Position numbers and translations under genes: made by a program. 45,747 nt of DNA from an uncultured Pseudomonadota bacterium (lineage in GTDB: Bacteria; Pseudomonadota; Gammaproteobacteria; CAJXQU01). Shown here piece after piece: positions 31,420-45,747 of the stretch. The DNA is taken from the NCBI GenBank assembly GCA_913058255.1, contig CAJXQU010000018.1, forward strand, positions 1-45,747, given 5' to 3'. How positions within the stretch are numbered: the stretch's first letter is position 1; each line of letters opens with the position of its first letter. The notes beneath the pieces are model-generated. The model had not been told where the DNA came from. It made no database searches and was given only the letters and a program-made list of their open reading frames with translations.

Positions 31420-31887
31420 TTATGATTTTGATTGAATGTAGTTTTCAATGCCCATTTTTTCGATCAGGCCGATTTGCGTTTCCAACATAAAGGTATGATC
31501 TTCTTCAGTATCAGTCAGTAAAACTTCCAGAATTTCTCTGGTTTGATAATCACCACAAGACTCGCAATAAGCAATAGCCTCTTTTAAATTATCAATCACT
31601 TCATATTCTAACTTCAGATCGTACTTAAGCATGTCTTCAACGTTATTCTCGTACTTTATTTCATCACGACCTGCTAGGTTAGGTACGCCCTCTAAAAAGA
31701 GAATTCGGTCAATCAACTTTTCAGCATGCCCCAGCTCATCTTCCATTTCATGCTTAAACTGAGCCTGCAGTTTATCCATTCCCCAGTCTTTAAAAATACA
31801 AGACTGTAAAAAATACAGATCTGCAGAGGTTAACTCTCCTGACAGTAAAGAATTAAGATATTTGATTACTTTTTTATCACCTTTCAT
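31420..31887 (-). CDS. bfr: Bacterioferritin subunit lacking heme-ligand Met52
   Basis: A 155-residue bacterioferritin. Ferroxidase ligands are kept (Glu18, Glu51, His54, Glu94, and the ExxH near 128-131 in TEEDH), but residue 52, the axial heme Met, is Leu (EDELGHAE). This is the pattern of the BfrA-type partner in two-subunit bacterioferritins such as that of Neisseria. It is 3 bp after the Met52-containing paralogue, so the two are co-translated and should form mixed 24-mers. It stores iron; heme would be bound only at sites made by the other subunit. Confidence 0.93.
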   Translation of the reverse strand: MKGDKKVIKYLNSLLSGELTSADLYFLQSCIFKDWGMDKLQAQFKHEMEDELGHAEKLIDRILFLEGVPNLAGRDEIKYENNVEDMLKYDLKLEYEVIDNLKEAIAYCESCGDYQTREILEVLLTDTEEDHTFMLETQIGLIEKMGIENYIQSKS

Positions 31888-31890
31888 GTC

Positions 31891-32364
31891 TTACTCTCCT
31901 CCAACCTGTGCTTGTATATAGTTCTGGATACCCATTTTTTCGACAAGTGCTAATTGAGTTTCTAACCAGTCAATGTGTTCTTCTTCGTCTTCGAGAATTT
32001 TTTCAAATAACTCGCGGCTTACATAATCTTGAGTCTTCTCGCAGTGTGCTATTGATTCAAGTAATAGCGTTCGGCTCTCCATTTCAAACTTTAGATCATT
32101 GGCCAGCATCTCTTCTACATCTTCACCTATCATCAACTTACCTAAATCTTGCAGATTTGGTAAACCTTCTAAAAATAAAATACGTTCGATCAACTGATCC
32201 GCGTGTTTCATTTCAGCGATAGACTCTTTATAAGTACGTTCGTTGAGCTCTTCTAGGCCCCAGTTCTTAAATATACGTGCATGCAAAAAATATTGGTTGA
32301 TCGCTGTTAACTCATTTTTCAATACTCTATTTAGGTATTTTGTCACTTTCGCATTATCTTTCAT
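31891..32364 (-). CDS. bfr: Bacterioferritin subunit with heme-ligand Met52
   Basis: A 157-residue bacterioferritin with all key residues: Glu18, Tyr25, Glu51, Met52 ([10 protein letters not shown]), His54, Glu94, Glu127 and His130 ([10 protein letters not shown]). [20 protein letters not shown] is typical. It forms the heme-bearing part of the iron-storage shell. GGGGA before ATG is the ribosome site. Divergent from bfd, whose product releases its iron; the intergenic region has Fur-like boxes. Confidence 0.96.
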
Positions 32365-32497
32365 CAGTAATTCCCCTGCTTAAACCAAAAATCATCCATA
32401 AACTCCGCTAAGTCATCATCAGCTTAGATGGATGAAGCTTAAGCTATATAACAATAAAAACAACACATAACTCATTGTTTTAAGGCTATAATATTAA

Positions 32498-32589
32498 TAT
32501 AAATCATTATCGTTCACACTTCTATAATTAAAGGTTCTGATACTTATGACGATAAGACTATTGACAATCATTATCATTCGCATAAAATA
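32498..32589. promoter_or_regulatory. Bfr/Bfd divergent control region with Fur boxes
   Basis: The bfd promoter is TTGACA (32561-32566), 16-bp spacer, TAAAAT (32583-32588). The Fur-like sequence ACAATCATTATCATTCGC (from 32564) covers its spacer. A second Fur-like stretch, AAATCATTATCGTTC (32500-32516), lies towards the bfr side. The Fur box on the bfd promoter fits iron-starvation induction of the ferredoxin that unloads bacterioferritin. Confidence 0.7.
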
Positions 32590-32617
32590 ATTATCATAAC
32601 CATGTAGGAGTTGAATC

Positions 32618-32788
32618 ATGTACGTATGTATTTGTAGTGCCGTCACAGAAAAGGATATCCAGGCCGAGACACAAAAACCGAATAGTTCTGTCAGCACAAT
32701 TTGTAAAAAGCTAGGTTGCGCTACTCAATGTGGAAAATGTGCGAGACACGTTCGTGAAGTGCATGCTTCAGCAGTATCAAGCCGATAG
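32618..32788 (+). CDS. bfd: Bacterioferritin-associated ferredoxin (Bfd)
   Basis: A 56-residue [2Fe-2S] protein. Ligands are Cys4 and Cys6 (MYVCICSAVTEKD) and Cys38 and Cys41 (CATQCGKCARHVREV), the Bfd pattern. It docks on bacterioferritin heme and passes electrons that release stored iron. TAGGAG lies 7 nt before ATG. It is divergent from the two bfr genes and carries a Fur box on its promoter, so it should be made when iron is short. Confidence 0.95.
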   Translation: MYVCICSAVTEKDIQAETQKPNSSVSTICKKLGCATQCGKCARHVREVHASAVSSR

Positions 32789-32961
32789 TTACTGTTTGAA
32801 GATTCTTAGCAACTGAGTTAATACGCTTTTCTTGTTCCCTTCGAAATTCATCCTTCACTATCATTTGTTACACAGTAGTCACCGGATTTTTTTTGACTCA
32901 TCTCTATTAGTGCTCTCTTTAACTTCTCAAACTAATAAGAATGAAAATAGCAACCTCAGTA

Positions 32962-33029
32962 AATAAGATTCTCATTATTAATGTGTAGGCTAGATCATAA
33001 ACATATTGCAAATGCATATCATTATCAGC
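32962..33029 (+). promoter_or_regulatory. Two Fur-like boxes upstream of fbpA
   Basis: AATAAGATTCTCATTATTA (32962-32980) and AATGCATATCATTATCAGC (33011-33029). Both match much of the Fur consensus, and they lie 100 and 52 bp before the fbpA start. Repression by iron-loaded Fur is expected. Confidence 0.75.
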
Positions 33030-33080
33030 TATGCGATAATAGATTTTCTTATTGAAAAAGATTTAAAGGATGTAAACTTT

Positions 33081-34100
33081 ATGCTTAAGTTTTCTACTGT
33101 TTTATTGTTTGGGCTTGCTTCAGTAACAGCAAGTATTACAAGCTTTGCCGAGGAAGTGAATATTTACTCGGCTCGTAAGGAAGCTCTGATTAAGCCATTG
33201 CTGGATTCTTTTACAGAACAGACTGGTATCGAGGTTAACCTTATTACAGGTAAAGCTGATGCCTTGTTAAAACGTCTTGTCGCTGAAGGTCAAAATTCAC
33301 CCGCTGATTTATTCCTAACCGTTGATGCCGGTCGCTTACACCGCGCAAAAGAAGCTCATGTTTTACAAGCTATTTCTAATCAAGAACTAGAGGCAGCCGT
33401 GCCTGTAACCTATCGTGATTCAGAAGGGTTTTGGTATGGCCTTTCATTAAGAGCAAGAGTGTTCGCTTACTCCAACGAACGTGTTCAGGCTTCTGAGCTT
33501 ACAAGCTATGAAGATTTGGCCAACTCTAAATGGGGAAAGCGTATTTGTATTCGATCATCTGACAATGTCTATAACCAGTCTTTAGTGGCATCAATGATCG
33601 AAGCCAATGGTGAAGAAGCCACTGAAAAATGGGCTGAAAGTTTGGTTGCTAATATGGCACGAAAACCGAAAGGTGGTGATCGTGACCAAATAAAAGCGGT
33701 CGCTGCAGGTCAATGTGATCTAGCCGTGATCAATACCTATTACTATGATCAAATGTTGGCTTCACCTGATGAGTCAGAAGCTCAGGCAGCAAAGAAAACA
33801 AGCCTATTCTGGCCGAACCAAGATGATCGTGGAACCCATATAAATGTCAGTGGTGCAGGTGTTACAGCACATGCAAAAAATAAGGCGGCAGCCGTTAAGT
33901 TGCTACAACACTTGTTGAGTGCTGAGTCACAAAAATGGTATGGCGAGGTTAACTTCGAGTATCCTGTGCAAACATCGGTAGAGTCCAGCGAAACGTTGAA
34001 AGGCTGGGGTGACTTTAAAGCTGATAACCTGAATATCGATAAACTTGGCAGCAACAATGCCGCAGCCGTTATGTTAATGGATCGAGCTGGCTGGAAATAA
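33081..34100 (+). CDS. fbpA: Periplasmic ferric-iron-binding protein (FbpA/FutA)
   Basis: A protein of about 339 residues. Signal peptide 1-23 (TSFA-EE), then VNIYSARKEALIKPLLDSF, typical of iron-binding class periplasmic proteins. AVINTYYYDQML carries the tyrosine pair that grips Fe3+. The frame opens at 33006, but the Met at 33081 starts the signal peptide and has AAAGGA 10 nt before; the upstream part contains the Fur box. It delivers iron to FbpBC encoded 13 bp downstream. Confidence 0.96.
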   Translation: MLKFSTVLLFGLASVTASITSFAEEVNIYSARKEALIKPLLDSFTEQTGIEVNLITGKADALLKRLVAEGQNSPADLFLTVDAGRLHRAKEAHVLQAISNQELEAAVPVTYRDSEGFWYGLSLRARVFAYSNERVQASELTSYEDLANSKWGKRICIRSSDNVYNQSLVASMIEANGEEATEKWAESLVANMARKPKGGDRDQIKAVAAGQCDLAVINTYYYDQMLASPDESEAQAAKKTSLFWPNQDDRGTHINVSGAGVTAHAKNKAAAVKLLQHLLSAESQKWYGEVNFEYPVQTSVESSETLKGWGDFKADNLNIDKLGSNNAAAVMLMDRAGWK

Positions 34101-34113
34101 GCTACGGTAATTT

Positions 34114-35763
34114 ATGCGAGGAAAATTATTAGATCCATGGCAATCAGGCATTTTACTGCTAGCCGTCATCCTCGCTATCCCTGCGCTGGCCGTCATCAGC
34201 TTTATATTTGCCCCATCCACTAGCGATATCTGGCAACATCTTCGCGCAACGGTCTTACAAGATTACATTCTCAATTCACTGACCCTTGTGATCGGTGTTG
34301 GTCTTGGAACGCTTTTATTGGGCGTATCCACTGCATGGCTGACAAGCTTATGCGACTTTCCTGGTCGTAAATTTTTTAGCTGGGCCTTATTATTACCCAT
34401 GGCTATCCCCGCTTATATTTTGGCTTATACATACACGGGTATGTTTGATGTCGCTGGGCCTGTGCAAAACTGGATACGTGACACCTTTGATCTTGGATAT
34501 AGAGATTATTGGTTTCCAGAAATTCGTTCCATGGGTGGTGCGATCAGTATGTTGTCACTGGTTTTATATCCATACGTTTACCTACTCACCCGTACTGCTT
34601 TTCTCAGCCAATCGGTGTGTGTGTTAGAAGCTAGTCGAACATTAGGTTGCGGTGTTTGGCGTAGTTTTTTTACGGTCGCCCTACCCCTTGCTCGCCCGGC
34701 TATCGTTGCAGGTATTTCATTAGCGATGATGGAAACATTGGCTGATTACGGTACCGTCAAATACTTTGGTATCAACACATTCACGACGGGTATTTTTAGA
34801 ACCTGGTTTGGCCTGGATAGTACTGCCGCCGCAGCACAATTAGCGACCTTCTTATTAGGTATGGTCATTATATTAGTTGTCATAGAACAATTATCTCGAC
34901 ACCAAGCTCGTTTTCATCACACCACTGGTCGTTATAAACGTTTACCGCGCTATCAGTTGAAAGGCTTTTCTGCTTTCTTTGCATTCCTTGCCTGCCTACT
35001 TCCCTTATTCGCTGGTTTTATATTACCCGCAGGTCAGCTCCTACAATGGGCGATAAGTACATCCGAAAAAATGCTCAATGCCCAGTTCGGAACCCTCGCG
35101 CTTAATAGTTTTTTACTGGCTGCTATTGCTGCCGTTGTGACACTTTTACTAGCCTTGTTCCTAGCTTATGGACAACGTCTACGCCCATCCAAACTTACGT
35201 TCTCTGCAGTCCGTTTTGCGAGCATGGGTTATGCTATCCCCGGAGCCGTCATCGCCGTTGGCGTTATGATCCCATTTGCATTATTTGATAATAGCGTTGA
35301 TACATGGATGCGTGAACATTTTAATTATTCAACCGGTCTACTCTTGAGCGGCACCTTATTCGCTGTCCTATTTGCTTATATTGTTCGTTTTCTTGCGATT
35401 TCTTTGCATGCTGTAGAGACCGGCTTAGGCAAAATAAAACCTTCCATCGACGAAGCGGGACGACTCCTCGGCTGTGGTCCTGTTGAGTTATTACGTCGAG
35501 TTCATATTCCGGTCATGCGGGGCGCTGTTCTAACGGCTTTGTTATTAGTTTTTGTCGATGTATTAAAAGAATTACCTGCAACCATGATCTTACGTCCATT
35601 TAACTTTAATACGCTTGCGGTTAGAGCATTTGAACTTGCCTCTGATGAACGCCTAGCTGATTCATCAACAGCCGCGCTTGCCATCGTCGTAGCAGGTATA
35701 ATCCCTGTTATCTTATTAAGTCGATCAATCAGTCAATCTCGGCCCGGACATGAAACAACTTGA
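34114..35763 (+). CDS. fbpB: Ferric-iron ABC transporter permease (FbpB)
   Basis: A 549-residue permease with about 12 membrane helices in two homologous halves, the normal FbpB build. Each half has the EAA loop that meets the ATPase: VLEASRTLGCGVWRSFFTVALP in the first (key residues E-A-G-P) and IDEAGRLLGCGPVELLRRVHIP in the second (key residues E-A-G-P). It moves Fe3+ across the inner membrane. Its stop overlaps fbpC by 14 bp. No separate Fur box; transcribed from the fbpA promoter. Confidence 0.96.
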   Translation: MRGKLLDPWQSGILLLAVILAIPALAVISFIFAPSTSDIWQHLRATVLQDYILNSLTLVIGVGLGTLLLGVSTAWLTSLCDFPGRKFFSWALLLPMAIPAYILAYTYTGMFDVAGPVQNWIRDTFDLGYRDYWFPEIRSMGGAISMLSLVLYPYVYLLTRTAFLSQSVCVLEASRTLGCGVWRSFFTVALPLARPAIVAGISLAMMETLADYGTVKYFGINTFTTGIFRTWFGLDSTAAAAQLATFLLGMVIILVVIEQLSRHQARFHHTTGRYKRLPRYQLKGFSAFFAFLACLLPLFAGFILPAGQLLQWAISTSEKMLNAQFGTLALNSFLLAAIAAVVTLLLALFLAYGQRLRPSKLTFSAVRFASMGYAIPGAVIAVGVMIPFALFDNSVDTWMREHFNYSTGLLLSGTLFAVLFAYIVRFLAISLHAVETGLGKIKPSIDEAGRLLGCGPVELLRRVHIPVMRGAVLTALLLVFVDVLKELPATMILRPFNFNTLAVRAFELASDERLADSSTAALAIVVAGIIPVILLSRSISQSRPGHETT

Positions 35764-36802
35764 ACTAAAAAATATTGCCGTCAGCTTTTCGGGCAAAACT
35801 ATTATTAAGGACATCAGCTTAAGCCTTGATCGTGGCCAAATTGGTTGTCTTTTAGGTCCCAGTGGTTGTGGCAAAACAACATTGCTACGAACGATTGCTG
35901 GTTTCGAATTACCAACAACCGGTCAAATTTATATTGGTGGCAAAGAAGTCAGCCATGAAGGCTGGGCGAAAGCGCCAGAGCAACGACGAGTTGGTATGGT
36001 CTTTCAGGATTTTGCGTTGTTCCCTCACCTAAACGTTAATGACAACATAGCCTTTGGTTTAAAAGGTATGAGTCGTGATGAGAAAAATGGTCGAGTAAAT
36101 AGCTTATTACAAATGGTAGGCTTGCCCGACTCAGGAAACGTATTTCCACATCAACTCTCTGGGGGTCAACAACAACGCGTTGCCTTAGCTCGCGCACTTG
36201 CCCCCAAACCAGAAGTTTTATTACTCGACGAACCTTTTTCAAGCATGGATTCAGAACTCCGCCAACAGGTTGCGTTCGACGTTTTGGAGATTCTTAGACA
36301 TGCAGATATCACCACCATATTCGTCACCCATGATCAATCCGAAGCATTCACCCTAGCCGATGAAATCGGTGTAATGCACTCTGGACAATTGCAACAATGG
36401 GATAGTGCTTATGAACTTTACTATAAACCAAGTAACCATTTTGTTGCTGATTTCATAGGTAGTGGTGAGTTTATTTCAGGAATTGTGGTCGATAAAGATC
36501 GAGTAGCTACTGGACTAGGCGTTATACATTGCACATCTGCTGAAAGCTTCAAAATAAATGATAACGTCGAAATTCTGATCCGTCCTAACGACATCACCTT
36601 CGATCAATCTGCAGAAATACGTGCCAGAGTACTCACTAAAAAGTTTCGAGGTGAAACATTTAATTATGATCTCCAGCTACCAGATGGCAGTATTATTCTA
36701 TGCACTAGCCCGAGTCGAAGTAATTACGCGATCAATGATGAGTTAGGAATAAAACTAGAAACTAAAAACCTGGTTGCTTTCGCCCGAAAAACAAGCATTT
36801 GA
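35750..36802 (+). CDS. fbpC: Ferric-iron ABC transporter ATP-binding protein (FbpC)
   Basis: A 350-residue ATPase. Walker A GPSGCGKTT, Q-loop VFQDFALFPHL, signature LSGGQQQRVALARAL, Walker B VLLLDEPFS and H-loop FVTHDQSEAF are all present. The C-terminal ~110 residues form the TOBE-like regulatory domain (NVEILIRPNDITF). The gene starts inside the end of fbpB, so the subunits are made in coupling. It powers uptake of Fe3+ from FbpA. Confidence 0.97.
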   Translation: MKQLELKNIAVSFSGKTIIKDISLSLDRGQIGCLLGPSGCGKTTLLRTIAGFELPTTGQIYIGGKEVSHEGWAKAPEQRRVGMVFQDFALFPHLNVNDNIAFGLKGMSRDEKNGRVNSLLQMVGLPDSGNVFPHQLSGGQQQRVALARALAPKPEVLLLDEPFSSMDSELRQQVAFDVLEILRHADITTIFVTHDQSEAFTLADEIGVMHSGQLQQWDSAYELYYKPSNHFVADFIGSGEFISGIVVDKDRVATGLGVIHCTSAESFKINDNVEILIRPNDITFDQSAEIRARVLTKKFRGETFNYDLQLPDGSIILCTSPSRSNYAINDELGIKLETKNLVAFARKTSI

Positions 36803-37312: not shown

Positions 37313-37370
37313 CCAGAGCTTAAAGTTCAAAAAGGTGGATCATCCGACCGATGATCCACAAGAGCTCTGG
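37313..37370 (-). terminator. Nested hairpin with T-run in the hemP leader
   Basis: A perfect 10-bp stem (GTGGATCATC with GATGATCCAC, 5-nt loop; 37335-37359) is followed on the minus strand by CTTTTT, so it could stop transcription about 110 bp before hemP. An outer perfect 8-bp pair (CCAGAGCT with AGCTCTGG; 37313-37320 and 37363-37370) encloses the stem and the T-run, a feature not usual for simple terminators. Confidence 0.65.
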
Positions 37371-37490
37371 AGAAAGACAGAAGAGAAGAGAGAGTGATCT
37401 CTACTGTCACATTAGCTACTACGTCTGTTTTACGAGACTTCGTCATAGAGAATCTAATTCGGTTAAATAATTCATCTTGACTTAGCAGCT
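37325..37490 (-). ncRNA. Candidate Fur-controlled small RNA or hemP leader RNA
   Basis: From the promoter at 37498-37526 to the hairpin T-run at about 37330 would be a transcript of roughly 160 nt, starved-for-iron induced, of RyhB/PrrF size. It might instead be only the leader of hemP, with partial termination. I cannot show complementarity to a target by eye. Confidence 0.4.
37327..37446 (-). CDS. Possible 39-codon leader ORF
   Basis: It begins ATG ACG AAG at 37446, encodes MTKSRKTDVVANVTVEITLS followed by a hydrophobic segment and the end VDHRSDDPPF, and its last codons cover the hairpin. Its ribosome site is weak. If translated, ribosomes would disrupt the terminator stem, as in attenuation. 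I do not recognise the peptide. Confidence 0.25.
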   Translation of the reverse strand: MTKSRKTDVVANVTVEITLSSLLSFSRALVDHRSDDPPF

Positions 37491-37497
37491 ATTAATA

Positions 37498-37526
37498 ATG
37501 ATAATGATTCTCATTGCATTAGTCAA
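37498..37526 (-). promoter_or_regulatory. Fur-box promoter of the hemP leader
   Basis: On the minus strand TTGACT (37521-37526), 17-bp spacer, TATCAT (37498-37503). The Fur box GATAATGATTCTCATTGCA (37500-37518) overlaps spacer and -10; it is the best Fur match in the window. Confidence 0.8.
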
Positions 37527-37805: not shown

Positions 37806-38030
37806 TTGAAAAATTTTTCCCTTATATATAGCAGCTTGTGCACTATTCTTTTTGCGACAACTGCTTCAGCGCGCCCAGAACTTGAGACAAACCTCTGGAT
37901 AAGTCCATTTATTCACTCTATTATCTTAGCCCTTATGGCCGTACTATTAGCAGTTGGTATCGACTGGTTAATAAACCGACTGTCCTTAAGTAACCACACT
38001 AAAAATAGGAAAAAGAATCATGCTACATAA
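37806..38030 (+). CDS. Small membrane protein overlapping the NiSOD gene
   Basis: A 74-residue protein that starts at TTG. Residues 1-22 look like a signal peptide (cut near ASA-R), and residues 31-53 are a strong membrane helix (SIILALMAVLLAVGIDWLI); a basic tail ends it. It overlaps sodN by 11 bp, so translation is likely coupled. I know of no standard NiSOD partner of this type; a role in nickel entry or membrane tethering of SodX is speculation. AT-rich upstream sequence has no clear ribosome site. Confidence 0.6.
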   Translation: MKNFSLIYSSLCTILFATTASARPELETNLWISPFIHSIILALMAVLLAVGIDWLINRLSLSNHTKNRKKNHAT

Positions 38031-38520
38031 AATATTAGCCACGCTAGATAAATCTATAAATTTTGAAACTGCCTCTGCGCATTGCGATGTCCCTTGTGGT
38101 ATTTACGACCCAAGTACAGCTCAAATCGCTGCTTTGACTGTTATCCGTATGCTTGATCAAATTAAAGAACTTGCTGATAAAGATTCTTTAACAATTGCAG
38201 ATCACGCTAAACTTTCTCGCTTAGTGGCTCAAAAAGAAGAGCATGCTGAAGTTGTTAAAAAAGAAGTTCGCATCACCTGGGGTGATTACTTCAAACAACC
38301 ACAATTTGATCAAGTTCCAGGCATTCATGAACTTGTACACAACATTATGCTAACTGGTTCTAAATGTCGCCAAACCATTGATCAAGAAAATGGTCTAGCA
38401 CTATTGAAATTGGTTAATGAGTTTGCAGAAGCATTCTGGAAAACTAAAGGTGTAGAAACTTACACAGCAACTTGCCCATATCCACCAGCACAACAAGTTG
38501 TATATCCTAAGTTAGGATAA
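38020..38520 (+). CDS. sodN: Nickel superoxide dismutase
   Basis: A 166-residue NiSOD precursor. The nickel hook HCDVPCGIY lies at residues 21-29: after removal of a 20-residue leader (cut TASA-H), His1, Cys2 and Cys6 of the mature form bind Ni, with Pro5 and Tyr9 conserved. The rest is the four-helix bundle (EEHAEVVKKEVRITWGDYF, then PGIHELVHNIMLTGSKCR). It turns superoxide into O2 and H2O2 in the cytosol without iron or manganese, which suits an iron-starved cell. The protease SodX is encoded 9 bp downstream. Confidence 0.97.
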   Translation: MLHKILATLDKSINFETASAHCDVPCGIYDPSTAQIAALTVIRMLDQIKELADKDSLTIADHAKLSRLVAQKEEHAEVVKKEVRITWGDYFKQPQFDQVPGIHELVHNIMLTGSKCRQTIDQENGLALLKLVNEFAEAFWKTKGVETYTATCPYPPAQQVVYPKLG

Positions 38521-38529
38521 GATCAGTTC

Positions 38530-38835
38530 ATGATCGGTATTGTAAAAATACATGGGCAAAGCATGGCTCCAGCCCTATCGGGGGGTGACTTTGTTGTCAC
38601 CTCTCGTTATTACCGCAAACTATCCACCAACGATCTTATAATTTTTAAGCATCCAATCTATGGCCGTTTGATCAAACGGATTAAAAAAATAGATCGACTC
38701 GGTAATATTTGGGTTCGTGGTGAAAATAAATACAGCCTCTCCTCAGAACAAATGGGCATCGTCGCGCCTAGTATGGTTCAAGCTAAGGTTCTTTTCCCCA
38801 TCAGACAAAGACAGTCATTACGCTTAAAAATCTGA
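38530..38835 (+). CDS. sodX: NiSOD maturation protease SodX (S26 family)
   Basis: A 101-residue signal-peptidase-like enzyme. The catalytic serine is in IHGQSMAPALSGGDFV (Ser11) and the lysine in YGRLIKRIKKID; NIWVRGENKYSLSSEQMG is the family's C-terminal box. It trims the SodN leader so that the histidine that binds nickel becomes the N-terminus. It lacks a membrane anchor, as usual for SodX, and follows sodN directly. Confidence 0.95.
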   Translation: MIGIVKIHGQSMAPALSGGDFVVTSRYYRKLSTNDLIIFKHPIYGRLIKRIKKIDRLGNIWVRGENKYSLSSEQMGIVAPSMVQAKVLFPIRQRQSLRLKI

Positions 38836-39139: not shown

Positions 39140-42100
39140 ATGTTTAAACATCTTCAACATCTTGCTAAAGCAACGCTCACTTCAATTCTGCTGGTAACAC
39201 CACTCGCCGCACAAGCCGTAGTGGACATGAATATTTCGAGTTTTACGGCCAACCCAAACCCAGTCACATCAGGTGGTGAGTTTCACTATCTGTTATCCGT
39301 GGAGAACAGCGGTAATGAAGATGCACCTGACGCTAACTTGACTATTACGATCCCATCAGGCGCCACCGTCACTAATCTGTCTCCAGGTGTTTGTACAGGA
39401 ACTAGCCCCGTACTTTGTGACTTTGGCACGTTAACCGGAACGCTTGCTGGCGGCTCTCCGATCAACGTTGATATTACGATGACTGCAACGAGTGCTGGTC
39501 CTGCATCGCTCAGCTCAACAGCAACGGTTTCGACGTCGGCCACGGATGGCAATAACGGGAATGACTCTCTTACACAAGGAACCACGGTCAACCGAGGTTC
39601 TGATCTGTCCATTTCTTTCAATGCTTCATCCGCAACAACAGCCAGCGGTGGTTCTACTTTCGCATATGTAGTTGATGTTGCTAATGGTGGGCCGAATGAT
39701 ACTGATGATGAAAAAGTAATTCTTACTCTACCTCCACAGGTGAGCTATACGACAAGTAGTGGTTCTGGCTGGAGTTGTAGTGCTGCAGGTCAAATAATCA
39801 CTTGTAATCGATCAGCGACCTTAGTTAATGGTTCAACAGCTCCTCCTCTGACAGTTAATGCACAAGTGACTGGAAGCTCACTTGGGACTTTTACTGCGCT
39901 TGCAACTGTCAGTTCTACTACCGCTGATGGTGATGCAAATAACAATTCAGCAACGCATGACGTTCAAGTCTCTGCTGGAGCGGATATGGCCATCAATAAA
40001 TCTGTCTTACCTATACCTGTTGTCGCTGAGCAACCCGTCACTTTTACTTTAAGCGTGACTAATAATGGTCCAATGTCTTCAGACGCTGTTGTGGTAACTG
40101 ATACTTTGCCAGCTAATTACACGGCGATCAGTGCTTCAGGTTCAGGCTGGACCTGTAATGTAGTCGGTCAGACAGTTACCTGTGATGCAGATGCTTCATT
40201 GGCTCAAGGTTCGGCACCAGCGATCACAATCAATGCTACCGCTCCGTCAAATGCAAACATACCAGCAGCGGGAACCTCTCATTCAAATACTGCAAGCTTG
40301 GTAAGCTCCACTCAGGATCCAATTCCTGAAAATGATTCAAAAACAATCAACTATAACATTGGTAGATACCATGCTGATCTGTCGATCACAAAATCTAAAA
40401 CACCCAACCCCGTGGCCCAAGGTAGCACGATGTCATCGTCTATCCGTGTCAAAAACAATGGACCCAGAAACGCTACAAATATTATTAAAGTCGAAGATAC
40501 ACTTGCAGCTGGTGAATCTTATAGCAGTGCATCACCAGGCACAGGAACTGGTTGGACTTGTAGCTACAACCAGGCAAACGATACCACCGGTGGTATCGTA
40601 ACTTGTACACATGCTGGCCCTCTTGCACTAAATGCCCAAACCCCTGTTTTGACCATTCCAACAAAAGCTGTTGCAACGGGCGCAATGCAAAATACAGCTT
40701 GTACTAGTACATCTGCAGGACAAGCTCCAAATGAATTTGATTTTAATGCTGCTAATGATTGTGTTACTGCTGGTGGTACGACTTCTACTAGTGGCACCGC
40801 GGATCTGGATCTCCTCAAAGTAGTTCAGGATCTTGCTCCCGGTAATAATGATGGCACTTTGCAAGATGATGAAAATACTCTCACATACACGCTGACAGTA
40901 ACAAACCGTAATGACACAGGTGACACAGGTGCAGATGCAACCAATGTTGTATTGAGTGATCCAATTCCGATGTATGCACCCAGCAATCCTAATTATGGAG
41001 TAACGGCCATCACAGCTACGCCGAGCCAGGGAGCAGCTTGTTCAATCGGTGCAACTATCACTTGTAACCTGGGCACAATTATAAATGGCGCCTCAGCCAA
41101 TGTAGTCATTACTGTTGCTCGCCCTATAAAAGATGGTCCATGGACGAACACTGCCACTGCATTTTCACAAAATGTTGGTGATCCAAATCGTGCAAATAAT
41201 ACAGCTTCTGCTTCAATAACAATTGAACCAGTTGCCGATGTTGCGGTAGAAAGCAAAGTTCAATCAGGTCCGATCAAAGCAGGTGTCGAAGCAACATATA
41301 TTATTAGCTTCAAGAACAGAGGTGTATCTAAGGCAGACAACATAGAAATAGTTGACACTTTCACCAATCTTAACGGCATGACTTATACCTTCATCAGTGC
41401 GAGCTCAACCTTGTCAGGTTCTGTCTGCACACATGATGTTCCGACGAGAAAAGTTACATGTACTGGAGGATCGCTTAACTCCGGTGAGTCAAAATCCCTC
41501 ACGGTCAAAATCCGACCTGATTACGGCACGAGCCTGATCTATCCATTAAATCTGGAAAATACGGCGACAATAACAACATCAACACTTGAGTCTGATGGTC
41601 TAGCAGGTGTGGTTAACCCGAATAACAGCCAGTCAGCAACATTGGTCGTTAACCCTCCTGAAGTTGACATTCTAGTGCAGAAAAAGGACTTAGTTGATCC
41701 TTTATTCTATGACTCTGCAACGGCATCAAATAATATCATTACTTATGAGATCAAGGTCACTAATCAAGGCCCATCTTATGGCACAGGTATTCAATTTATT
41801 GATACCTTAACACCTGCTACCGGTCAGACATTAACCTTTCTTTGCGATAAGGCTTTGCAGGGTGATAGCTGCACACCAGCGACTCCGGGGCAAGCCTGCA
41901 ACAATCAAAGCACAGTTATAAGCAGCCCAACAAGCATGACTTGTAATCTGCCCGATATGGAGACAGGCGCAACCACTTATCGTTATTTGGATTTTCGGGT
42001 GGACTCAGTTCCAACGGCCACTGGCTCTACTGTAAAAAACAATGTTACCGTTTCTTCTAACGAGGCCGAATCACTCGCTGGTAATAACACTGCCAGTGAC

Positions 42101-45100
42101 CAGACTACTGTTCGGATTCGTGCGGATGTTGAAGTCACGAGTAAAACTCCTGAGTTTGCAACTGTTAATGTTAATCAAACTTTCAATTGGACGATTGTTG
42201 TCACCAACAATGGTCCAGATATTTCTGAAGAAACAACACTTGGCGACACCCTGCCTGTTGGCATGATTCTGACTGGGCCTGCTGTCCCTGCACAAGGCAC
42301 CTGCCCTACGGGTATCGCTGGTGAAAGGGTGATCAGTTGTGATCTTGGGCTACTGAATGATGGTGCTTCTACGTCAATCACTGTGCCAGTTAAGATTACC
42401 AGCTTTGCAGCTTCATACAATAACACCGCAAGTGTAACGACATCTACGGTTGATCAGGTTTCTACCAATAACAGTAAAACCAACTCTGTTGCTGTACGAA
42501 AATCATCACTCGCAGGCTTCGTATATGAAGACAACAATAATGATGGCTCTAAAGGTGGCGGCGAAGCGGGTATCAACAACGTTTCACTTACGTTAAGCGG
42601 CACAGATCTTTATGGAAATGTTGTCTCAGGATCAGCGACTACTGATGGTACTGGTGCTTATAAATTCGACAATCTGCCTCCAAGTGATTCGACTGGTTAT
42701 ACCGTAACCGAAACACATCCGACTACCTATTTTGATGGCCTGGACAACAGTGCGGGAACGATTGTTGCGAACAGTAAAACTACTGATGTTATCAGTGCTA
42801 TTGCCGTTCCGGCTGGCTCTGATGTAACGGGTTACCTCTTTGGTGAATTGAAAAAATCATCTCTGACAGGTTTTGTCTTTAATGATATTGCCACTCCTGA
42901 TAACAATATTAAGGATGCTGGTGAACCAGGCATTCCGAATATTCCAGTAACGCTGACAGGTACAGATGACCTAGGCAATACGATTACACCTATCGTTGTT
43001 AACACAACTTCAACAGGTCAATTTATATTCCCTGATCTACGTCCGGGAACTTACACAATTACAGAAACAACACAGCCCCCGACCTTCACAGATGGCACAG
43101 ATACTGCCGGTGATCTGGGCGGCACAGTCGGCGCTGATGTGATCACGGCTATTCCTCTGCTTGCAGGTCAGGGTGGTGTGAATTATCTGTTTGCTGAAAC
43201 GGGTGTAGGTGGAAGTGTCCTGACTGGTATTGTTTATATCGATGTAAATGATAATGGCGTTCAAGATAGCGGCGAAACTGGTATTCCTGGTGTTAACGTC
43301 ACACTGTCCGGAACGGATATAGATGCCAACCCTGTCAATCTAACGCTTCCTACTGACAGTACTGGCGCTTTCACTTTCAGTGCTCTTGCTCCTAGCAACG
43401 GTGCAGGATACACCCTAACTGAAACACCTCCCGCGACTTACTTTGATGGACAGGAAAACTCCAGTGGTGTGATCATTCCAAATAGTAAAATCACTGATGT
43501 AATTACTAATATTAATGTTCCGTTAAACACGATCGTCACAGGCTACCTGTTTGGTGAACTGACAGGACGAGCAATCTCCGGTTTCGTTTATAACGATGGC
43601 AGTAATGATGGAACAAAAGATCCTGAAAACCCAGGCATAGAAAATGTCACGATTACGCTAACAGGAACAGATGATCTGGGTAATCCTGTGAATGAAGTAA
43701 CCACGACTGATGCCAATGGTGCTTATAGTTTTGCCGATTTACGTCCGGGTACTTATGCATTGCAGGAAACTCAGCCTGCTGGCTATCAGGATCATATCGA
43801 TACGGTTGGTCTGATCGATGCTGCGCCTGTGGGCACGCTACCGAGTAATACTGCCGATGATGTGATCAACGATATTATTTTGCCTGCTGATGGTGATGCT
43901 ACTGAATACAACTTTGCAGATTCTAATACTGCTATCTCAGGATTTGTTTATGTCGATGCCAATAACGATGGTGTTAAAGATGCTGGCGAAGCTGTTATTC
44001 AGGGCGTCACGCTGACACTGTCAGGCAACGACTCTAACAACAACCCTGTCAATCAAACTACAACGACTAATGCCACTGGTGCTTATAGCTTTACAGGCAT
44101 GCTCGCTAGTGATGCCAATGGTTATACAGTCACTGAAACACATCCGACAGCTTGGGCTGATGGTAAAGATACTGCAGGTAATGTTGGCGGTTCAACAGCC
44201 AGCAATGATCAAGTCAGCGGCATCATAATGACATCATCTACACGCGCGTCAGACTATAATTTTGGTGAGCTTGGTGCTTCATTATCCGGCATTGTCTACA
44301 ACGATAATGATGATAATGGCCAACAAGATCCTTCCGAACCGGGTATAGCCGGTGTCACAATTACACTGACAGGAACTGATCTAAACGGTTTTCCCGTCAG
44401 CTTCACAGCAGTAACTGGTGACAATGGTCTTTATCGTTTTAATAACTTACCACTTCCAAATAGTTCGGGGTACACGATCACAGAAACGCAACCTCCGGGC
44501 GTTGCGAATGGTAAAGAAAATCCTAGTAATGTGATTGCGGGGGTTCAAATAACAACACCGGACGTGGAAGGAACCGGTTTCAACTTTGGTGAAATCGTAC
44601 CTTCCGCCCAAACAGCTAGCATTTCAGGTAAGGTGCATGATCGTGATGATCCAAGCATTAGCTATGAGGGTTGGACAGTTGAAATCGTCAAAAACGGTAT
44701 TGTCATAGCAACGACCATTACTGATGCAAACAGTGATTATTTATTTGAAGGTTTGACGCCTGGGACTGGCTACACCATCCGTTTCCGTCATCCTGAAAGT
44801 AATACGATCTTTGGTGTGATTGAAAATGTCAGCCTAACAGCAAACACCCTGCTACCTGATCAAAACTTACCACTTGACCCTTCTGGTGTCGTTTATGACT
44901 CTGTCACTCGGCTACCAGTTCCGGGAGCAATCGTTACATTCTCAGGCCCTCCTGGGTTTAATCCAGCGGTCGATCTGATTGGTGGAGCAGCGAATGTTAA
45001 CCAAGTTGTTGGAGCAGATGGTTTATATAAATACCTATTAAACCCATCAGCGCCAGCGGGCGTATATAGCTTGTCCGTTACTCAACCAGCAGGTTATTTA

Positions 45101-45747
45101 CCACCGAACTCGCTGAATATTCCATCACCTTGTACAGGCACATTAACGGTAGGTGGGGTTCCCGCTCCAGCAGAAGTCCAACCACAGAACACAGCACCAA
45201 CAGGAACAGCTCCTTTTCATAGTCCTGCCAGCTGTCCTGCGCTGGGAGCTGCAGGCACTCAGTATTACTTGAGCTTCAACCTCAGTCCGGCATCGGCTGA
45301 TGTGATCAACAATCACATCCCTCTCGATCCAACGGGCCCGATTTCAGGCCTTACTGTTGTTAAATCGACTCCTAAAACTAATGTCATCCGTGGTGAACTT
45401 ATTCCTTACAGCATAAAAGTGACGAACAACCTTGCAACTCCAATCACCAATATCCGTATTCGCGATCAGATCCCTGCAGGGTTCAAATATGTAACTAACT
45501 CAGCAACACTTGATGGAACGCGTAGCGAACCTCAGATCAACACCCGTGAATTGACATGGCCAGTGCAAAACTATGCGGTTGGTGAGTCACACGAAGCGAA
45601 ATTGCTTTTAGTGGTCGGTGCTGGTGTAGGCGAAGGTGAATACGCCAACCAGGCTTGGGGCATTAACGGACTGACAGGAGCAACAGCGACAGCTATTGCA
45701 AATGCAACTGTCCGAATCATTCCTGATCCGACGTTTGATTGCTCTGA
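39140..45747 (+). CDS. Giant secreted surface protein with DUF11 and SdrD-B repeats (3' partial)
   Basis: Open for 2202 codons to the window edge with no stop. Signal peptide 1-26 (LAAQA-V). Eight DUF11 domains start near residues 27, 152, 282, 412, 553, 698, 841 and 994, with the usual VTNNGP and TC pairs. Six SdrD-B/Cna-B-like repeats (about 1122-1800) open with GFVY-D-NNDG-KD-GE-GI calcium-loop motifs; a divergent seventh starts near 1826. Another DUF11 domain starts near 2068. Such proteins are exported and often sit beside a large OmpA-type partner; the missing end prevents a check. It is probably an adhesin or cell-surface fibre. Minus-strand frames inside it are shadows. Confidence 0.95.
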   Translation, partial: MFKHLQHLAKATLTSILLVTPLAAQAVVDMNISSFTANPNPVTSGGEFHYLLSVENSGNEDAPDANLTITIPSGATVTNLSPGVCTGTSPVLCDFGTLTGTLAGGSPINVDITMTATSAGPASLSSTATVSTSATDGNNGNDSLTQGTTVNRGSDLSISFNASSATTASGGSTFAYVVDVANGGPNDTDDEKVILTLPPQVSYTTSSGSGWSCSAAGQIITCNRSATLVNGSTAPPLTVNAQVTGSSLGTFTALATVSSTTADGDANNNSATHDVQVSAGADMAINKSVLPIPVVAEQPVTFTLSVTNNGPMSSDAVVVTDTLPANYTAISASGSGWTCNVVGQTVTCDADASLAQGSAPAITINATAPSNANIPAAGTSHSNTASLVSSTQDPIPENDSKTINYNIGRYHADLSITKSKTPNPVAQGSTMSSSIRVKNNGPRNATNIIKVEDTLAAGESYSSASPGTGTGWTCSYNQANDTTGGIVTCTHAGPLALNAQTPVLTIPTKAVATGAMQNTACTSTSAGQAPNEFDFNAANDCVTAGGTTSTSGTADLDLLKVVQDLAPGNNDGTLQDDENTLTYTLTVTNRNDTGDTGADATNVVLSDPIPMYAPSNPNYGVTAITATPSQGAACSIGATITCNLGTIINGASANVVITVARPIKDGPWTNTATAFSQNVGDPNRANNTASASITIEPVADVAVESKVQSGPIKAGVEATYIISFKNRGVSKADNIEIVDTFTNLNGMTYTFISASSTLSGSVCTHDVPTRKVTCTGGSLNSGESKSLTVKIRPDYGTSLIYPLNLENTATITTSTLESDGLAGVVNPNNSQSATLVVNPPEVDILVQKKDLVDPLFYDSATASNNIITYEIKVTNQGPSYGTGIQFIDTLTPATGQTLTFLCDKALQGDSCTPATPGQACNNQSTVISSPTSMTCNLPDMETGATTYRYLDFRVDSVPTATGSTVKNNVTVSSNEAESLAGNNTASDQTTVRIRADVEVTSKTPEFATVNVNQTFNWTIVVTNNGPDISEETTLGDTLPVGMILTGPAVPAQGTCPTGIAGERVISCDLGLLNDGASTSITVPVKITSFAASYNNTASVTTSTVDQVSTNNSKTNSVAVRKSSLAGFVYEDNNNDGSKGGGEAGINNVSLTLSGTDLYGNVVSGSATTDGTGAYKFDNLPPSDSTGYTVTETHPTTYFDGLDNSAGTIVANSKTTDVISAIAVPAGSDVTGYLFGELKKSSLTGFVFNDIATPDNNIKDAGEPGIPNIPVTLTGTDDLGNTITPIVVNTTSTGQFIFPDLRPGTYTITETTQPPTFTDGTDTAGDLGGTVGADVITAIPLLAGQGGVNYLFAETGVGGSVLTGIVYIDVNDNGVQDSGETGIPGVNVTLSGTDIDANPVNLTLPTDSTGAFTFSALAPSNGAGYTLTETPPATYFDGQENSSGVIIPNSKITDVITNINVPLNTIVTGYLFGELTGRAISGFVYNDGSNDGTKDPENPGIENVTITLTGTDDLGNPVNEVTTTDANGAYSFADLRPGTYALQETQPAGYQDHIDTVGLIDAAPVGTLPSNTADDVINDIILPADGDATEYNFADSNTAISGFVYVDANNDGVKDAGEAVIQGVTLTLSGNDSNNNPVNQTTTTNATGAYSFTGMLASDANGYTVTETHPTAWADGKDTAGNVGGSTASNDQVSGIIMTSSTRASDYNFGELGASLSGIVYNDNDDNGQQDPSEPGIAGVTITLTGTDLNGFPVSFTAVTGDNGLYRFNNLPLPNSSGYTITETQPPGVANGKENPSNVIAGVQITTPDVEGTGFNFGEIVPSAQTASISGKVHDRDDPSISYEGWTVEIVKNGIVIATTITDANSDYLFEGLTPGTGYTIRFRHPESNTIFGVIENVSLTANTLLPDQNLPLDPSGVVYDSVTRLPVPGAIVTFSGPPGFNPAVDLIGGAANVNQVVGADGLYKYLLNPSAPAGVYSLSVTQPAGYLPPNSLNIPSPCTGTLTVGGVPAPAEVQPQNTAPTGTAPFHSPASCPALGAAGTQYYLSFNLSPASADVINNHIPLDPTGPISGLTVVKSTPKTNVIRGELIPYSIKVTNNLATPITNIRIRDQIPAGFKYVTNSATLDGTRSEPQINTRELTWPVQNYAVGESHEAKLLLVVGAGVGEGEYANQAWGINGLTGATATAIANATVRIIPDPTFDCS
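42506..44617 (+). repeat. Six tandem SdrD-B-like coding repeats (~355 bp period)
   Basis: Repeat starts are near 42506, 42857, 43214, 43569, 43931 and 44279, so periods are 351, 357, 355, 362 and 348 bp (about 118 residues). Each unit has an LxGxVYxDxNxDG opening, an LTGTD strand, GAYxFxxLxPG and a GYTVTET segment. The units are diverged, so recent duplication is not suggested. Confidence 0.9.

Follow-up and report, generated by a model that had tools for sequence, protein, structure and literature searches.

The window, by which we mean the whole 45,747-nucleotide stretch of DNA that was analysed, is contig C18 of an assembly from an uncultured gammaproteobacterium (GCA_913058255.1; 2.78 Mb in 33 contigs, 96% complete), for which genus, family and order hold the identical set of three genomes at each rank. 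On its minus strand lies hemP (37216-37055), which encodes a 53-aa protein of the haem uptake and regulator family (Pfam PF10636, 8.8e-18). The stretch around this gene is an iron cluster, consisting of two ferritin-fold genes (31420-32364, minus strand), Fur-box-like sites, a small frame (32618-32788) that by eye resembles the bacterioferritin-associated ferredoxin gene bfd, an FbpABC-like transporter (33006-36802, plus strand) and hemP itself. The part from 31420 to 33020, with the ferritin-fold pair, the Fur-box-like sites and the bfd-like frame, has the same gene order in Gammaproteobacteria bacterium NORP146. There hemP directly follows bfd, whereas in the window fbpABC takes that place and hemP has a promoter of its own.

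The divergent neighbor of hemP encodes a nickel superoxide dismutase (NiSOD; 38020-38520, plus strand; PF09055, 8.8e-47). It is followed on the same strand by a signal-peptidase-like protein (38530-38835; PF10502, 3.2e-06), which we take to be SodX-like. A 74-codon frame (37806-38030, plus strand) sits just before the NiSOD start and overlaps it; this frame has no Pfam match and a low codon score. Farther along, an open frame of at least 2202 codons (39140-45745, plus strand) runs off the contig and carries seven DUF11 stretches in its first 1000 residues.

The promoter region and the leader hairpin

Ahead of hemP is a Fur box made of two overlapping 19-bp matches (37494-37518; 16/19 at 37494-37512 and 15/19 at 37500-37518), scored against a 19-bp consensus. 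No site in the window scores higher than the 16/19 match, and only two sites in 400 kb of contig C1 reach 16 or more. The box overlaps a sigma-70-like promoter on the minus strand (TTGACT-17-TATCAT, 37498-37526, 10/12) that faces the leader and hemP, in the order and with the spacing that are right for a Fur-controlled hemP leader. Judging from the -10 box, transcription would start near 37491, giving a leader of 275 nt. An earlier note on this DNA had described the strongest Fur-box promoter of the window as pointing at a leader of about 270 nt to hemP, and our analysis agrees on both points. A second promoter-like site, on the plus strand and directed toward NiSOD (TTGACT-17-GATAAT, 37477-37505, 10/12), is a consensus match only, in a region where 5 promoter-like sites were found and 5.1 are expected. 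Because this site overlaps the same Fur box, Fur may also control NiSOD.

The same note had reported a 10-bp hairpin and T-run after about 160 nt of leader, and this too is borne out. The terminator-like hairpin (about 37359-37328, minus strand) has a 10-bp stem, a loop of 5 and a dG of -15.8; it reads GTGGATCATC/GGTCG/GATGATCCAC, then CTTTTTG, so that a C precedes five T. Hairpin and T-run end about 163 nt into the leader and 118 nt before hemP. Between 36800 and 38000 this is the sole terminator-like site, with a mean of 0.4 for the region in shuffles. Of 300 dinucleotide-shuffled leader sequences, only 2 contained a perfect stem of 10 bp or more with a loop no larger than 8, which places the hairpin beyond chance. 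To calibrate its quality, we used 400 kb from this genome, 356 kb of it occupied by ORFs of at least 120 codons, and collected the sites that combine a dG no higher than -14 with 5 or more T in 8 bases. Of the 24 sites obtained, 16 follow a same-strand ORF at a distance of up to 200 nt, 3 lie inside ORFs and 5 elsewhere; a stricter pass, in which the stem may run into the T-run, left 2 sites at least as good in both measures, both of them behind ORFs. With its dG of -15.8 the leader hairpin therefore has the quality of a terminator, despite a short T-run of five. Between the hairpin and hemP no minus-strand promoter-like site was found, and expression of hemP would therefore depend on read-through.

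The predicted structure of the leader is concentrated in its first 162 nt, which fold with a z of -3.85 (1 of 200 shuffles as stable; z of -3.1 in a second calculation), and the stretch before hemP is ordinary (z of 0.04 and 0.37). Among 400 intergenic control windows from the same genome, drawn out of 630 made, 23 reach a z of -3 or lower and 8 a z of -3.85 or lower, so the leader fold belongs to about the top 5% and is not unique. The terminator accounts for part of this, as the 162 nt without it are unremarkable (z of -1.6). The first 80 nt alone have a z of -3.2, with none of 200 shuffles as stable, and are predicted to form a folded 5' domain (37413-37491, minus strand) closed by the 9-bp stem UAGCUGCUA/UAGUAGCUA, which includes one G-U pair. 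Next come a predicted hairpin with the pyrimidine-rich loop CUCUCUCU and a pyrimidine-rich stretch that the unpaired probabilities leave open (together 37360-37408, minus strand); this could be a pairing surface. The terminator stem then follows with a probability of 0.98-1.0 in the predicted fold.

Two further pairings proved to be at chance level. The earlier note had an outer 8-bp pair enclosing hairpin and T-run, and such a pair does exist (CCAGAGCT/AGCTCTGG, with arms at 37370-37363 and 37320-37313 on the minus strand), but 98 of 300 shuffles hold an equally long pair within 60 nt; its predicted probability falls from about 1 in the first 200 nt to about 0.2 when the whole leader is folded. 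Likewise, 76 of 300 shuffles matched a 9-bp pair that joins the leader with the hemP-proximal part.

Relatives and other hemP loci

The two congeners (93% and 97% complete) contain no hemP, leader DNA, hairpin or NiSOD, and no close FbpC was found in them (best 41-42% identity). A search with the leader DNA over genus, family and order (three genomes) returned the window itself only, the hairpin pattern is present in the genus only at this locus, and a plasmid collection gave no match to the leader. Elsewhere in its own genome the leader has a 26-base match with an E of 0.03. On a wider scale, 73 of the 369 genomes in the class contain hemP, and 47 loci came from a named genome collection. For comparison we assembled 76 other hemP loci, 47 from the named collection and 29 of the 30 places for which the class search gave loci, the thirtieth being the window's own; two of them (L029 and L073) appear to come from one and the same contig, and for two others (L018 and L045) the upstream sequence is shorter than 500 nt. 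No similar leader was found by blastn upstream of the 76 (best E 0.33, 13 bases). Given its absence from both the congeners and these loci, we regard the leader as a singleton.

A Fur box of at least 14/19 is present in the up to 500 nt upstream of hemP at 20 of the 76 loci, and at 17 of these 20 it lies within 114 nt of the hemP start. At none of the 20 does a terminator-like site separate the Fur box from hemP. The three with a similarly long leader hold an open frame in it, namely bfd (L034), a frame of 86 codons (L025) and one of 61 codons (L026). The nearest HemP, at 67% identity, is that of NORP146 (L034), where it is encoded behind a Fur-box-like site and the bfd-like gene.

The relatives also differ in their superoxide dismutases. 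Both congeners lack NiSOD and have an Fe/Mn-type SOD between parC-like and argD-like genes (identified by eye), with a sequence motif that presumably marks the iron form. The genome of the window has no match to PF02777 at 96% completeness, has NiSOD, and shows a 412-nt gap without a SOD remnant between its parC-like and argD-like genes (loci compared: L120, 1085-1498; L115, 1489-2067; L116, 1234-1812). It appears from these sequences that an iron SOD was exchanged for a nickel SOD in this genome.

Readings of the leader

The DNA carries a Fur box, a promoter, and a hairpin with a T-run, with no further promoter-like site between hairpin and hemP and no antiterminator. The most likely reading, to which we give about an even chance, is that this is a Fur-controlled hemP leader which is partly terminated, yielding an RNA of about 160 nt together with a read-through hemP mRNA. 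When iron is plentiful, the Fur-box promoter would be shut. Under iron starvation Fur would be released and the leader RNA made; its first 160 or so nucleotides would fold up and close with an intrinsic terminator of intermediate strength. A share of transcripts would stop near 37330 as a Fur-controlled RNA of about 160 nt, and the remainder would continue for another 118 nt and enter hemP, a gene without an evident promoter of its own. We infer the termination itself and, with it, two products in some ratio; the short RNA may in addition act in trans through its exposed pyrimidine-rich stretch. The earlier proposal of a Fur-controlled transcript that ends before hemP, with read-through, is thus well supported by the DNA layout; no homologous leader was found in the two congeners or at the 76 other hemP loci.

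Ranked second, and possible rather than probable, is a plain long untranslated leader: a single Fur-controlled hemP message on which termination is negligible and the hairpin at most stabilises the RNA. A T-run of only 5 T after a C would suit this reading, as would the apparent lack of any other promoter for hemP, which makes read-through necessary. Other hemP genes are also Fur-controlled, and where a Fur box was found (20/76) no terminator-like site intervenes. However, hairpins this strong with T-rich sequence after them lie mostly behind genes in the same genome, and the leader would be longer than those at 17 of the 20 Fur-box hemP loci, the other three of which hold an open frame.

A stronger form of the partly terminated leader, compatible with it, is that the 160-nt RNA is an iron-sparing sRNA of the RyhB/PrrF kind that acts on iron-enzyme messages. 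We consider this doubtful. It would draw on the Fur promoter, the terminator and the exposed pyrimidine-rich stretch, and hfq is encoded in the genome. BrrF of Burkholderia cenocepacia is described as a Fur-controlled sRNA tied to hemP (PMC7377471), which provides a precedent. Yet the whole window gave nothing in Rfam at the gathering score. With permissive settings at the locus, PrrF matched essentially at the promoter (E 1.4-4.7), and the other matches are chance; the PrrF match reaches 17.1 bits against a gathering score of 90, the alignment being essentially promoter and Fur box. The genes of Hfq-binding sRNAs are described as having a terminator with seven or more T (PMC5558911), and the present terminator, CTTTTTGAAC, has five. 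Nor was the leader conserved, being found in 0 of 2 congeners and upstream of 0 of the 76 other hemP genes. Membership in the RyhB/PrrF group, which the earlier note had raised, is therefore not supported by the PrrF score, the T count or conservation.

In a target search, we scanned the exposed stretch for duplexes with 388 gene starts, taken from 400 kb of contig C1 and the window out of the 2.78-Mb genome. Mean pairing was weaker than that of shuffled queries (-18.8 vs -19.4), which leaves no overall excess, although the fifth-best energy (-35.7) is below those of all 40 shuffles (lowest -34.9). The ten best matches include one iron-related gene, for a NifU_N/IscU-like iron-sulphur scaffold, and one without a Pfam family; nine of the ten are not recognisably iron proteins, and hemP itself ranks 211th of 388. 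The classic target of iron-sparing sRNAs of this kind is an Fe/Mn SOD, and no Fe/Mn SOD was found in this genome, which also counts against the reading.

Quite unlikely, in our estimation, is an attenuator in which ribosomes on a 39-codon frame, or else a ligand or protein, choose between termination and read-through to hemP. The 39-codon frame (37327-37446, minus strand) extends across the hairpin as far as the T-run, and its start shares an ATGA with a 10-codon frame (by eye); attenuators are usually laid out with a terminator ahead of the gene, and haem-responsive read-through has been described for PrrH (PMC2851614). Against this, no Shine-Dalgarno motif was seen by eye before either frame. 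The longer frame is probably no gene: its codon score of -0.04 bits per codon falls between genes and chance, with 6.6% of 2512 genuine gene segments as low and 18.75% of 144 intergenic frames as high. In addition, blocking the 3' arm of the hairpin costs 13 kcal/mol, so there is no competing antiterminator, and the 5' arm finds just a weak partner. Of what the earlier note had said here, the frame over the hairpin exists and lacks coding support beyond its intermediate score; the translation-controlled attenuator is weakly supported.

A direct RNA link between iron starvation and NiSOD, which the earlier note had found attractive, gained no support: perfect complementarity to the region upstream of NiSOD extends over 8 nt at most, a length reached by 156 of 200 shuffles, and NiSOD ranks 371st of 388 in the duplex scan.

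Comparable RNAs and implications

Among known RNAs BrrF comes closest, being controlled by Fur and connected with the hemP message. Like the RNA proposed here, it is described as folded, of similar size (126 nt) and associated with iron starvation, but cleavage releases it from the 3' end of hemP mRNA, whereas ours would be a 5' leader with its own hairpin (PMC7377471). BrrF is reported not to reach into the terminator downstream of hemP and to have no similar sequence outside Burkholderiales (PMC7377471). At the 3' end of hemP in the window we found neither a terminator-like site nor an unusual fold that would indicate a BrrF-like RNA.

PrrF1/PrrH of Pseudomonas aeruginosa (RF00444) has a promoter layout that is closely alike in alignment, with no convincing match in the RNA body. 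There, a Fur-controlled terminator is described as being read through into a longer RNA, as we propose, but read-through leads into a second sRNA, PrrF2, and here it would lead into hemP (PMC2851614). RhlS of P. aeruginosa is likewise reported to be an sRNA that arises when transcription of a gene terminates within its 5' UTR; it differs in belonging to quorum sensing and an unrelated gene, and Hfq dependence is reported for it (PMC6786874). In Streptomyces coelicolor, s-SodF is described as linking a Fur-family regulator with the nickel SOD gene, but it derives from the sodF 3' UTR and has a 19-nt match to sodN, compared with a longest complement of 8 nt here (PMC3919588). The present case combines the layouts of BrrF, PrrF1/PrrH and RhlS at the other end of hemP, and is a member of none of these groups. 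In a search of one open-access library, no earlier example turned up of a hemP 5' leader that gives rise to a Fur-controlled sRNA.

In its fullest form, the idea would be of a Fur-controlled iron-sparing sRNA that is the prematurely ended leader of hemP, with read-through controlled by haem or translation, in an organism that appears to have given up its iron SOD for the neighboring NiSOD. We hold this to be unlikely. If it were true, one promoter would give rise to both an iron-sparing RNA and a haem-uptake protein. If, instead, there is only a long leader, the locus is an ordinary case. Since Fur-controlled sRNAs have little sequence in common, tracing them from one lineage to another is difficult. 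Should the leader prove real, such an RNA would belong to the 5' end of hemP in this organism and to the 3' end in Burkholderia (BrrF), and hemP transcripts would be a place to seek iron-sparing RNAs that have gone unrecognised.
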